This document shows positions 28,648 to 47,943 of a DNA stretch of 64,000 bases, piece by piece (position 1 is the stretch's first letter; every line of letters starts with the position of its first letter). Source of the stretch: an uncultured Macellibacteroides sp. Its GTDB lineage: Bacteria; Bacteroidota; Bacteroidia; Bacteroidales; Tannerellaceae. Made by a program: the position numbers and the translations under genes. The notes under the pieces were generated by a model. It was given only the letters and a program-made list of their open reading frames with translations. It was not told where the DNA came from and did not search any database. The stretch spans positions 3,919,054 to 3,983,053 of the forward strand of contig NZ_OY762974.1 of NCBI RefSeq assembly GCF_963667135.1, read 5' to 3'.

Positions 28648-28872
28648 TTATTTTGCCTCTTTCTTTGCAGTCTCCTTACAGCATTGTTTCTTTTCCTCAG
28701 TAGCTTTACAGCAACTCTTCTTATCTGCTTTCTCTTTACAACATTCCTTTTTCTTATCACATTGCTCTTTTTTTACCTCACTTTTAGCTGGTGCTTTCTT
28801 TGCATCCTGAGCATTTACAGTCATAGCAGTTATACTAGTCAACACTGCAATAGCAATTAAAATTTTCTTCAT
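28648..28872 (-). CDS. Small secreted Cys/Lys-rich protein
   Basis: 74 residues, family not recognised. Residues 1-22 form a clear signal peptide ending in 'VNAQ'. The mature 52 residues are made mostly of Lys, Glu, Ala and Cys. The seven cysteines form a single C followed by three CC pairs: C-x5-CC-x8-CC-x8-CC, a 10-residue period ('KKECCKEKADKKSCCKATEEKKQCC'). The high charge and lack of hydrophobics argue against a globular fold. Paired cysteines suggest metal or heme binding, or disulfides in the periplasm; none of these is shown. It is a monocistronic unit with its own terminator, between a sigma-54 activator and a hybrid kinase. The opposite strand is also open for part of this length, a by-product of composition. 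Confidence 0.75.
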   Translation of the reverse strand: MKKILIAIAVLTSITAMTVNAQDAKKAPAKSEVKKEQCDKKKECCKEKADKKSCCKATEEKKQCCKETAKKEAK

Positions 28873-29129
28873 AACTTCTGTAATTAATTTATTTACTGAT
28901 CTACATATAGTATCAAAGGATACTGCAGCGAAAATAATATGATTTCTTTATTATACCTCAAAATTTTTAGTTAATTATACAGAACAGTTTTGCAGAAACA
29001 CTTACGTCGGGATTATAATGTTTTTGCATCTATTTCTTTAGAGCTTACTATGTAAAAATTTTCATGATGTAAGATTAGAGCAAATACTAAGTCAACTAAC
29101 TCTAATACAATGACATAAACCATTTATCA

Positions 29130-29245
29130 CTTAAGGGAAATAATCTTTTGACAGTTGTCGAAATACATAACGACAATTGTCGACAAGGAGAACGACAATT
29201 GTCAATATCCTTGTCGACAACTGTCGGACGAATACTTCCCTTAAG
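29130..29245. repeat. 116-bp dyad array: four 12-bp palindromes at 22-bp pitch
   Basis: Outer arms CTTAAGGGAA (29130-29139) and TTCCCTTAAG (29236-29245) are perfect reverse complements. Between them lie four near-identical palindromes of the form CGACAATTGTCG: 29149-29160 (TGACAGTTGTCG), 29171-29182 (exact), 29193-29204 (CGACAATTGTCA) and 29215-29226 (CGACAACTGTCG). Their centres are 29154.5, 29176.5, 29198.5 and 29220.5, exactly 22 bp apart, and the whole set is symmetric about 29187.5. Two helical turns per step would place each site on the same face of the DNA, as for a cooperative dimeric binder. It could also fold as a long hairpin. No gene overlaps it. Confidence 0.85.
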
Positions 29246-29314: not shown

Positions 29315-29385
29315 GGTGACGGGTGGCAGATAAAAATGATCTGCCACCCTGTATCTATCACCCTCAAAAGTGACAGGTGACAGAT
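29315..29385. repeat. Hairpin and imperfect 17-bp direct repeat in the non-coding stretch
   Basis: GGGTGGCAGAT (29321-29331) pairs perfectly with ATCTGCCACCC (29339-29349) around a 7-nt loop. The 17 bp 29315-29331 recur imperfectly at 29369-29385 (GGTGACGGGTGGCAGAT versus AGTGACAGGTGACAGAT). The hairpin is not followed by a T run on either strand, so it is probably not a terminator. It may be part of an RNA or of an intergenic repeat family. Confidence 0.6.
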
Positions 29386-29433
29386 TGTATTGTGCAAACA
29401 TTGTTTGGCAACAAGGTTTGTAACTGTGAAAGC

Positions 29434-29463
29434 AAAAAAGCACCCCAAATGAGGTGCTTTTTT
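29434..29463. terminator. Bidirectional intrinsic terminator
   Basis: AAAAAAGCACC (29434-29444) pairs with GGTGCTTTTTT (29453-29463) around an 8-nt loop; both strands end in six T. On the minus strand it would end the short transcript of the 21-codon ORF at 29566-29631. On the plus strand no gene precedes it, so a plus-strand RNA from the 29.2-29.4 kb repeats is possible. Confidence 0.75.
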
Positions 29464-29565
29464 GTGTTTTGCAGACTTAAATAAAATTTGTATTTCTAAT
29501 CTTTTCTTTTAATCATACTTTCTCTCCATTTTACTGCATTATTACTAATATTATTTATTCTCTAT

Positions 29566-29814: not shown

Positions 29815-32304
29815 TTAATCTACAATCTTTTGTCGGATGGAAGTTACAATCTTTAAAATAGTATCGACTGAGTTAGACATAAGAGCCGACCACTCGGCAT
29901 CCGATAGCTGGTCCGATTTCTTTTCCAAGGCTTCCAGCATAGGAGTCAGCTCTTTTGCTCCTATCATCGAGAACAAAGGTAAAAATTTATGGGACAGCCT
30001 GGCTGATTCCTTTCTATCCATTTTCTCCAATGCCTTTTGAAATAGACTCACGTTGTGACTTGTTTCATCACAAAAAGTCTTCAGAATAGCATTTGATGCC
30101 TGGGAATCGTCTCCGGCAAAAACAGTAAGCGCATCAAGATTCAATTCAGACGCATTCGAAAAATAATCAGGAAAAATCGTTTTGACAAGATCGTGAAGCT
30201 GCTTTAGGGTATAAGGCTTAGTCAGAAACGCTGTAAAACCAGCATTTGCCAAGTCGGACTTGTTCGGAACACTACCGGAAAGAGCAACAAAAGGTATCGA
30301 ACTAACTACTGGATGGTCGAGCGACCGGATGACTTTCAGAAGTTCAAAACCATCCATTTGAGGCATTTGAATATCAGTAATTACAAAATCATAGGAGTCT
30401 TTTAGTAACATTTCTTTCACTTTCGAAGAATCGGAACACTTGTCCACAATGACTCCCAGATAGCCAAGCAACTCTTTTGCCAAGGCTAACTGGATTGGAT
30501 CGTCGTCGATCAGCAAGCAGTACAGGGAAGGATTCGAATCGGAAAGTTTACTAGTTGAAAGATCTGCCGCAACGGCTTTCACCTCTTGTACAGAGGTAGC
30601 AGATAATGGAATATCGGCACTGAACATACTTCCCTTTCCCACTTCACTTTCGAAGGATAAAGTTCCATTCATCAACATGACCAATTTATGAGTAATCGCC
30701 AATCCCAGTCCAAATCCGTCGGCGCCTTCACTCCCGGAAACTCTGGAAAATTTATTAAATAACTTATTCCTATCGGCTTCAGGAATACCACATCCTTGAT
30801 CTGAGACAATACTATGTAAAATATACTTGCCGGAATCATTTGTAATTTCATAACCTAAAACAACCGACCCCTTTGATGTGAATTTAATCGCATTAGAGAG
30901 TAAATTACTGATAATTTGTCTGATCCGAATGGGATCGCCTTCCAAAAGGAGATCTTTGTCTTCATTCTTTTCATGTATCACAAACTTTAGCCCTTTAGTA
31001 TCTGCCATTGGTTTAAAGCTGAGATAAATTTCGTTGAGAAGCGAGGATACGTTAAACGGAACAATATTAAATTCCATTTTATTGGACTCAAGCCGATAAA
31101 AATCTAACAGATCATTTACCAACGCCAGTATATGACCCGAAGAAGCATTCATATTATCTAAATAATAACGCTGCCTCCCATCCGGATGGAGTCGTTGCAA
31201 CAATTCTGTATATCCAATAATTGATGAAAGAGGTGCTCGAATATCGTGACTGATTGTAAGCATCAACTTTTCACGCTTCATCAGTAAGTCTTCCGTATAT
31301 TTTTTTGCTTTCTCCAACTGTTTACGGTAAAATTTACTTCGTGATACGTCTTTAGCAATTAAGTAAACAAACGATAAAACAATTATAACTGAGAGTATGG
31401 CAATAGCTGCAATAAAACGAGATGCTGAGCGTATTATTTCTTGTTTGTAATTCATGTTCTCCAAAGAAGTATTCAGTTCCTGACTCTCAATATCGCGCAA
31501 CATACTATCAACTTCGCTGGAAATCTGGCGGTTATCGGACCTTAATTTTTCGGCATACTCAATAACAAGTGTATAAAGTTCCTTACGCTGTCCGGCTACG
31601 TTTCGCTGCAATCTTTTCAACACACTCGAAATGGTGTCTGAGGGATTGTATAATCCTCCCTTTTTATCAGCTATATACTCTCGGACAGATCGTCGCACTA
31701 CTCCACTATCACCTTTTGAAGGCGAAAATACATCAGCGACACGTTTGAAGAATCCTTTGGGTTTTTTCCTGACAAATACCGTGTCTTCATGAACCTGTAC
31801 TTTTTTTAGCAAAGCAATTTCTTTTGCCATTTTATCTTGAGAAGACAGTACCTTATTGATATTTTGATTATATAGTTTTTCAAAATCGGCATCATTCCAG
31901 ATACTTAGTAGCTCTTTGGTGTTATGCCTTTTTCGCTCAATTAAAGAGCTGATTGTATCAATAATAATCTGCTGAGTTGAATCGTCAGACAATAGGCGGA
32001 GCGAATCTAAATTCTGCTGTGCAAGATCAAACGTTTCATCCAAAAGTATTTCAGGATTAACCTCCGTAGTATCTGCTTTCTTCCCAAAGTCTACAAACTG
32101 ACTTAAAGCTTCGCTTTCGTAAAGTAAAGACTGTGTATTTGTTACCAGATACACTTTCCGCCGGGAAATATCATTATTTGTATTTTCAGTTGCAAAATCT
32201 TCTACAATATTAAAAATGTAGATTACCGAAAGGATGGCTGCTGCAATAAGTAAACCATACCCTAAAAGGACTTTTCTTGTTATATGGAAACGCTCTCTCA
32301 TCAC
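29815..32304 (-). CDS. Hybrid sensor histidine kinase (HisKA-HATPase-REC-Hpt)
   Basis: 829 residues. Membrane helices at about 12-32 and 298-318 flank a helical periplasmic domain of about 265 residues that matches no sensor I know. Then come a linker coiled coil, HisKA ('LMLTISHDIRAPLSSIIGY'), HATPase ('NLLSNAIKFTSKG', 'SDQGCGIPEADR', 'GFGLGLAITHKL'), a receiver ('LLIDDDPIQLALAKELL', phospho-Asp in 'FVITDIQMPQMDG', 'LTKPY') and a C-terminal Hpt-like domain ('ESARLSHKFLPLFSMIGA', His in 'SHKF'). The full phosphorelay set lets it drive a separate response regulator such as the sigma-54 activator at 27186. Pairing is inferred from proximity. Confidence 0.9.
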   Translation of the reverse strand: MMRERFHITRKVLLGYGLLIAAAILSVIYIFNIVEDFATENTNNDISRRKVYLVTNTQSLLYESEALSQFVDFGKKADTTEVNPEILLDETFDLAQQNLDSLRLLSDDSTQQIIIDTISSLIERKRHNTKELLSIWNDADFEKLYNQNINKVLSSQDKMAKEIALLKKVQVHEDTVFVRKKPKGFFKRVADVFSPSKGDSGVVRRSVREYIADKKGGLYNPSDTISSVLKRLQRNVAGQRKELYTLVIEYAEKLRSDNRQISSEVDSMLRDIESQELNTSLENMNYKQEIIRSASRFIAAIAILSVIIVLSFVYLIAKDVSRSKFYRKQLEKAKKYTEDLLMKREKLMLTISHDIRAPLSSIIGYTELLQRLHPDGRQRYYLDNMNASSGHILALVNDLLDFYRLESNKMEFNIVPFNVSSLLNEIYLSFKPMADTKGLKFVIHEKNEDKDLLLEGDPIRIRQIISNLLSNAIKFTSKGSVVLGYEITNDSGKYILHSIVSDQGCGIPEADRNKLFNKFSRVSGSEGADGFGLGLAITHKLVMLMNGTLSFESEVGKGSMFSADIPLSATSVQEVKAVAADLSTSKLSDSNPSLYCLLIDDDPIQLALAKELLGYLGVIVDKCSDSSKVKEMLLKDSYDFVITDIQMPQMDGFELLKVIRSLDHPVVSSIPFVALSGSVPNKSDLANAGFTAFLTKPYTLKQLHDLVKTIFPDYFSNASELNLDALTVFAGDDSQASNAILKTFCDETSHNVSLFQKALEKMDRKESARLSHKFLPLFSMIGAKELTPMLEALEKKSDQLSDAEWSALMSNSVDTILKIVTSIRQKIVD

Positions 32305-47776: not shown

Positions 47777-47839
47777 ACTTTGATCTTTCATTCCCGTAAC
47801 TTTGATCTTTCAAAATTATAGGAATGAAAGATCAAAGTT
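47777..47839. repeat. Three copies of a 14-15 bp motif forming a perfect 18-bp inverted repeat
   Basis: The 376-bp gap 47568-47943 holds this element. ACTTTGATCTTTCATTCC (47777-47794) is a perfect reverse complement of 47821-47838. A second direct copy, AACTTTGATCTTTCA, lies at 47798-47812, 22 bp (about two helical turns) after the first. The direct copy and the inverted copy each contain TAACTTTG, a match to the -7 promoter box, facing opposite ways. Another TAACTTTG lies at 47714-47721. The structure can be a regulator-binding cluster or a hairpin. Nothing else is visible in the gap. Confidence 0.75.
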
Positions 47840-47943
47840 ATAAGGAAGTTTTAGCAATGTTATTTTTCAAAGAATTATTACTATAATTGCAAGACCATTT
47901 ACTTTCCTTTCGTTTTTTGGTTTACATTTAAATAAAGCATCCT

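Follow-up and report, generated by a model that had tools for sequence, protein, structure and literature searches.

INTRODUCTION

HU proteins are usually regarded as general DNA packers, and IHF has specific sites. In the Bacteroidetes, an expansion of the HU-HIG family (PF18291; NCBIfam TIGR01201, HU_rel) is said to have been predicted by Burroughs, Aravind and colleagues (2017) to recognise mobile elements. Palindromes spaced at whole helical turns, placed before the gene of the binding protein itself and at remote sites, are known from the arrays of ParB, ArgR, and plasmid iterons. Porphyromonas gingivalis belongs to the same order as the organism studied here. Its BrickBuilt minisatellite MITE consists of 23-nt direct repeats that follow each other with no spacer, within a MITE that carries TIRs, and 22-nt tandem repeats had previously been noted in strain W83 (PMC4596501). 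The string "palindrom" is absent from the main text of that paper, and a link to an HU gene is absent from its available passages (PMC4596501).

A search of the literature, with most subscription journals outside its scope, found no description of four-unit 22-bp arrays and, together with the HU-HIG entries, no DNA site for HU-HIG proteins. Here we describe such an array in a 64-kb stretch of DNA (the window) from a 4.46-Mb genome of the Tannerellaceae, near Parabacteroides (G000; G001 is a sister species and G002 a conspecific genome). By its sequence, the window array is a dispersed site related to one with four units at a 22-bp pitch that lies before an HU-type gene in the same genome.

RESULTS

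The window array is a symmetric element in noncoding DNA

The array is located in noncoding DNA between a gene for a small Cys/Lys-rich protein (Table 1), which is a possible target of the array, and a hybrid kinase gene (29815-32304, minus strand). An earlier note on this DNA had described four near-identical palindromes 22 bp apart, framed by arms at equal distances, and the positions are as given there: the centres (29154.5, 29176.5, 29198.5, and 29220.5) have a pitch of exactly 22 bp, and the arm sequences CTTAAGGGAA (29130-29139) and TTCCCTTAAG (29236-29245) lie at the same distance from the units. The four units and their pitch were borne out; in two units the core palindrome is imperfect, with central G-T and A-C. 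A repeat search returned arms of 29130-29182 and 29193-29245 with a complementarity of 79%.

The regularity, which the note had judged to exceed chance, held up: under a strict palindrome filter, for pitches of 16 to 30 bp, no other four-unit array in the window scored above 1.75, and the layout is seen again at five other places in the genome. When the filter was relaxed, 22-bp arrays passed in 2 of 199 window segments, the array itself and one near 47.8 kb. The latter is a second, weaker 22-bp array (47781-47856; score, 2.02). It is made of repeats centred on GATC (CTTTGATCTTTCA and its complement), precedes a peptidase-like gene, and matches none of the HU-HIG promoter arrays of the genome. 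Between the array and the kinase gene there are also an 11-bp inverted repeat without mismatches (GGGTGGCAGAT/ATCTGCCACCC) and a hairpin that resembles a terminator (29321-29349 and 29433-29464). The array itself is, as had been said, neither a terminator nor a CRISPR locus: an intrinsic terminator has a GC-rich hairpin and then a T run, and a T run is absent directly after 29245; a CRISPR locus has direct repeats with unique spacers of ∼30 bp and adjoins cas genes, and the array has 12-bp linkers and four short units.

Table 1. Coordinates of the window array, its parts, and linked features (window positions unless a genome position is given)
Feature	Position	Strand	Remarks
Whole symmetric element, 116 bp	29130..29245	.	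20-bp arm, 76-bp core with four units, 20-bp arm
Left arm	29130..29149	.	CTTAAG centre 29132.5, one more 22-bp step out from unit 1
Unit 1	29150..29159	.	GACAGTTGTC
Linker 1	29160..29171	.	GAAATACATAAC
Unit 2	29172..29181	.	GACAATTGTC
Linker 2	29182..29193	.	GACAAGGAGAAC
Unit 3	29194..29203	.	GACAATTGTC
Linker 3	29204..29215	.	AATATCCTTGTC; reverse complement GACAAGGATATT resembles linker 2
Unit 4	29216..29225	.	GACAACTGTC
Right arm	29226..29245	.	CTTAAG centre 29242.5, one more 22-bp step out from unit 4
Position equivalent to the TAnnTTTG box of many HU-HIG promoter arrays	29121..29128	+	Reads CATTTATC; no box (orphan array)
Small Cys/Lys-rich secreted-type protein	28648..28872	-	Closest gene with its start towards the array (∼260 bp)
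HU-HIG/winged-helix gene linked to the window array	G000:C1:4243380-4243973	-	∼295 kb away; related array in its promoter region
GACANNTGTC-type array loci in G000	∼332.9, 446.5, 1526, 1619.6, 3948.2, and 4244.0 kb		3948.2 kb is the window array

Some related arrays adjoin genes for HU-HIG/winged-helix proteins

The genome and its relatives were searched for units spaced by 22 bp, as the earlier note had advised. G000 has four GACANNTGTC-type units at this pitch in six places, the window included, with a unit degenerate in some of them (Table 1). Two or more adjacent units were present in all three genomes of the genus (G000 included) and in 17 of 123 genomes of the family (7 of 16 genera), compared to 1 of 123 for a reversed control pattern. 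The 43 array loci come from 17 genomes. Five of these loci, two being orthologues from conspecific genomes, adjoin genes for one kind of protein, consisting of an HU domain and a C-terminal winged helix (Pfam HU-HIG E values of 2e-21 to 5e-32). One genome, G017, holds more array places than the eight that were fetched from those listed. The array at 4244.0 kb of G000 is a promoter array, 62 bp upstream of a gene for such an HU domain-winged helix fusion (Pfam HU-HIG).

The protein at locus L043 scored 111 bits against PF18291 (cutoff, 26.2) and 80.9 against TIGR01201 (cutoff, 68.6), with an HU-HIG E value of 5e-32. All five scanned proteins passed the PF18291 cutoff, and two of four missed that of TIGR01201 (56.7 and 58.2). 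An AlphaFold2 model of a conspecific protein that is 97% identical (L320) has an HU fold and a winged helix (pLDDT, 88.8), with a pTM of 0.58 that makes the arrangement of the domains uncertain. Foldseek matched the model to HU/IHF chains and winged-helix chains; weaker fold matches included the centromere-binding proteins AspA and pNOB8 (E values of 0.003 to 0.006). By PF18291 score and by fold, the linked proteins belong to the HU-HIG family, and a profile made from the five array-adjacent proteins had matches in 94 of the 123 family genomes. A sigma-54 activator, the hybrid kinase, and the Cys-rich protein, all encoded nearby, had been suggested as regulators or targets; none found support as the binding protein, the array family being linked to the distant HU-HIG/winged-helix gene of Table 1, and the activator and the kinase were set aside as binders because the array family tracks this other gene.

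Four-unit arrays precede most HU-HIG/winged-helix genes examined

Going by an array score computed from their upstream regions, most HU-HIG/winged-helix genes examined in the family have an upstream array, and its sequence is usually particular to the gene. The set of 120 genes, taken from the top of the profile match list and from G000's own list, is nonrandom and contains several close orthologues or recent duplicates; 117 were scored, and 3 with fewer than 200 nt upstream were dropped. The score was an ad hoc four-unit palindromic score, calculated for thirteen lags; the twelve lags other than 22, scored on these same upstream regions, set the threshold (their 99% level). A four-unit 22-bp array exceeded the threshold in 98 of the 117 upstream regions (93 of 112 when the five seed genes were left out), and lag 22 was the best lag in 99 of 117. 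When palindromes alone were scored, lag 22 came first in 74 of 117 regions versus 62 of 585 shuffles, and lags 22 and 33 alone stood out in the means. As a control, the upstream regions of ORFs of at least 150 amino acids in the sampled genome had an array in 6 of 287 cases. The palindromes of promoter arrays differ between paralogues, recent duplicates excepted (e.g., GACCTGGGTC, GATAGCTATC, and CAGCTG cores), at a constant build.

Ten of the eleven HU-HIG/winged-helix genes of G000 have an array; upstream of the eleventh, the sequence has been replaced by sequence beside an insertion-sequence-like gene ∼490 bp away. The same threshold was passed by 10 of 16 HU-HIG/winged-helix genes from other families of the order, one with another lag also high, and L304, an HU-only gene of another family, passed it as well, with another lag passing too (1.78 against 2.04). 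Among ten HU-only relatives in G000, one (L154) has an array and the other nine scored have none. L154 (G000:C1, ∼1587.6 kb) encodes a 128-amino-acid HU-only relative without a winged helix and has four copies of ATGTACAT at 22 bp upstream, so that the association with arrays may extend to genes other than winged-helix fusions. In other classes of the phylum, none of 12 scored HU-HIG loci, all without a winged helix, had an array; a 13th had no start codon, and weaker matches were left out.

The arrays share one build and often a fixed distance to a promoter box

An autoregulatory array is expected to keep a constant distance from the promoter of the binding protein's gene. The motif TAnnTTTG, which we take to be the -7 promoter element of this phylum, starts at -29 (41 arrays) or -28 (7 arrays) from unit 1 in 48 of the 98 promoter arrays, with at most 6 arrays at any other offset and no reversed motif at these positions; the other 50 arrays have no exact box there. 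With the box 28 or 29 bp before unit 1, the array in these 48 cases probably covers the first transcribed bases.

In the 48 box-anchored arrays, the mean numbers of palindromic pairs were 3.92, 3.62, 3.48, and 3.42 of 5 at offsets 0, 22, 44, and 66, compared with 1.42 and 1.54 one step outside the four units (-22 and +88), 2.65 to 2.83 at linker centres, and a background of 1.28; selection by the four-unit score partly raises the four peaks, and the drop outside is not due to selection. More than four units were seen in a few arrays (six in L099 and five or six in L094). In the 37 orphan and 78 promoter arrays compared, arm complementarity extended ∼20 nt on each side of the 76-bp core and then fell to background, giving a canonical element of 116 bp; the limits that had been drawn around the window array agree with this. 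Linkers within one array tend to be alike in either orientation: linkers 1 and 3 of the 98 arrays were closer directly in 35, closer inverted in 40, and tied in 23, and they were strongly direct and not complementary in 11 and strongly inverted in 7.

Orphan arrays mostly resemble a promoter array of their own genome

We compared 38 orphan arrays with the 98 promoter arrays; 36 were scored, and 2 were dropped because their own genome had no promoter array in the set. A HU-HIG promoter array of the same genome was the best match for 27 of 36 orphans and among the top three for 32 (label shuffles, mean of 1.45 and maximum of 11). Of the 27 orphans with a rank of 1, 18 came from three genomes (G001, G017, and G075) and are therefore not all independent. 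For the other 4 of the 36, the own-genome promoter array ranked 15th to 50th and foreign promoter arrays were clearly better; the HU-HIG genes of these genomes were only partly sampled. For the window array, the own-genome promoter array ranked third, behind sister-species and conspecific arrays of the same paralogue. For one orphan, the match to its promoter array reached 94% across 114 bp. Orphans mostly lack the box, with TAnnTTTG at -28 in 3 of 38 (all in G017) and at -29 in none, indicating that they are not accounted for by promoter blocking.

An even 400-kb sample of G000 contained nine arrays at lag 22 and zero or one at each of eight other lags; extrapolation from this sample, with a wide error, gives about 100 arrays per genome, all kinds taken together. 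In 464 kb (the sample plus the window, at a slightly lower cutoff) there were 13 arrays, 5 of which match a HU-HIG promoter array of G000 and 8 of which match none, suggesting further binding proteins or array languages that are unaccounted for. A CTTAAG-type family, with four CTTAAG-type palindromes at 22 bp and A/T-rich linkers, was observed at 652 kb (L045, ∼2670-2760) and 616 kb (L046, ∼2725-2815), and CTTAAG arms were rejected as a marker of the GACANNTGTC-type family on account of it.

Of 37 GACANNTGTC arrays (6 of the 43 loci, at contig edges, were left out), 24 lie in divergent, 10 in codirectional, and 3 in convergent gaps, versus 35, 47, and 8 of 90 gaps in the sampled genome, where divergent gaps make up 32% of gap length; the comparison is a rough one, with arrays from many genomes and a baseline from one. 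By number, convergent gaps (3 of 37 versus 8 of 90) are not rarer than expected. A conserved regulon was not found among the array neighbours across genomes; the few in common were the HU-HIG gene itself, an XRE-cupin regulator gene, and a pantothenate-kinase-like gene. At L039 and L101, from two genera, the arrays lie upstream of orthologous XRE-cupin regulator genes (77% identity), which are a possible shared target.

Signals from both protein domains correlate with array sequence

Over all 98 arrays, array similarity correlated better with the HU body (0.31) than with the winged helix (0.19). The partial correlation for the winged helix given HU was 0.09 (reached by 2 of 200 permutations), and for distant pairs it was 0.06 (18 of 200). 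In the 48 box-anchored arrays, the protein windows that correlate best with palindrome similarity start at residues 157 and 163 (rho of 0.32 and 0.35), which is the predicted recognition helix, and HU residues 13 to 24 also reach 0.32. Either part may read the DNA: the 98-array test favoured the HU body, and only the box-anchored arrays favour the recognition helix, with HU residues 13 to 24 close. Alignment A2 was entered by 25 of 29 loci.

Individual sites turn over

The earlier note had said that a symmetric layout not conserved in orthologous intergenic regions would refute its reading, and the outcome is mixed. The layout is kept in relatives, but the window array itself is absent at the orthologous intergenic region of the sister species G001, which has ∼665 bp of other sequence versus ∼370 bp; individual orphan sites turn over, and the layout does not. 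By eye, the G001 region contains two other 22-bp repeats, CTTAAG and GATATATG/GATATATGAA (L271, ∼1290-1350 and ∼1440-1530; G001:C9). A 165-bp repeat with inverted-repeat ends flanks the 446-kb array of G000 on both sides (L040, 2558-2722 and 3234-3397) and also occurs at L078 (2675-2839). In G002, an array beside secA lies next to this repeat, with the contig ending on the other side; at secA of G000 such an array is absent. Ordinary transposable repeats can thus relocate orphan sites, which leaves their fixed build unexplained. Two three-gene elements, presumably IS66-like (L041, 254-2820, and L043, 3236-5797), are 94% identical, and each lies within 150 bp of an array.

DISCUSSION

We consider it likely that the window array is a specific DNA site for the HU-HIG/winged-helix protein encoded at G000:C1:4243380-4243973, within a cooperative system of four dimers with autoregulatory and trans sites. 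One HU-HIG dimer would sit on each palindrome, and the four dimers, aligned on nearly one helix face with two turns per step, would bind cooperatively. At its own gene, the array-bound protein would cover the transcript start and repress transcription (autoregulation); at orphan sites, it would act in trans, as a local silencer or regulator or as a nucleoid anchor. This reading is tempered slightly by the fact that a portion of the HU domain shows the recognition-helix signal too and that half of the promoter arrays have no exact box. A "cooperative operator for a dimeric regulator" was one option in the earlier interpretation, and it is the one that the data favour for the predicted binding; taken as a whole, that interpretation is partly supported. 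No evidence came up for a recombination or origin-type site, another of its options. More tentatively, the Tannerellaceae may have a multichannel, self-addressing chromosome system, in which an expanded set of HU-winged-helix proteins uses private four-dimer 22-bp codes that mark their own promoter regions and scattered sites, forming separate short nucleoprotein filaments for regulation or architecture.

The same binder could also serve nucleoid- or centromere-type sites that organise the chromosome, with transcription not being the main purpose. This is compatible with the reading that we prefer, and we think it rather unlikely as an account in its own right: the nine lag-22 arrays of the 400-kb sample, the HU fold of the linked protein, the AspA and pNOB8 chains among the weaker fold matches, and the lack of a promoter box at most orphans are all consistent with it, whereas the promoter geometry that is fixed at half of the own genes and, in a rough comparison, the excess of arrays in divergent gaps argue for a role at promoters.

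Alternatively, the arrays might be a mobile palindromic element (MITE- or REP-like) whose symmetry serves transposition, those near HU-HIG genes being insertions. Several observations point in this direction, namely the likeness of the copies at 333, 446, and 1620 kb over 307 to 417 bp (90 to 92% identity; other G000 loci share less), the secA array of G002 beside the 165-bp repeat, in a segment that G000 carries at 446 kb, the absence of the window array in G001, and the 2.57-kb IS66-like segment within 150 bp of two arrays. Against it, the arrays have paralogue-specific sequences and yet keep their pitch, unit number and, in half, their distance to the promoter fixed; the flanking homology of hundreds of bases is found in some sets only, and the single polymorphic case is accounted for by a repeat pair with the array as a passenger. 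Presence or absence was seen in that one case, which the flanking repeat explains, and the arms vary with the genome. We regard the mobile-element reading as improbable. A structured RNA leader, with the array as a long hairpin in the transcript, is very improbable: both strands fold far better than shuffles (z of about -8.4) and the boxed promoter arrays, just downstream of the box, are probably transcribed, but folding is automatic for self-palindromic units, linkers 1 and 3 would have to be complementary in a hairpin whereas the two are direct repeats about as often as inverted ones, the sole Rfam match in the window is a tRNA and not the array, and most orphan arrays have no promoter box.

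If the arrays are HU-HIG sites, as we favour, sequence alone connects an HU family that is expanded in gut bacteria with DNA sites that are private and of strict build. This provides a function hypothesis for the HU-HIG proteins, a family for which no tested one was found in the literature searched. How an HU fold with a winged helix reads sequence and how paralogues stay separate can now be tested, as can the question of whether many parallel nucleoid or regulatory circuits exist in one genome, and the arrays with their proteins may offer a ready-made set of orthogonal DNA-protein pairs.

Among known systems, the sites of IHF and HU are alike in that HU-fold proteins are on DNA; to our knowledge, they never take the form of four-palindrome 22-bp arrays with a private sequence for each paralogue. 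ParB, ArgR, and plasmid-iteron arrays differ in that the candidate binder here has an HU fold, the units are mostly four, and many paralogues have distinct arrays in one genome. BrickBuilt resembles the arrays in being an intergenic, multicopy tandem repeat of similar period, and is set apart by its description as 23-nt spacerless direct repeats, where the arrays have a period of 22, palindromic units, and varying linkers; it is the nearest published relative found, differing in period and build (PMC4596501).
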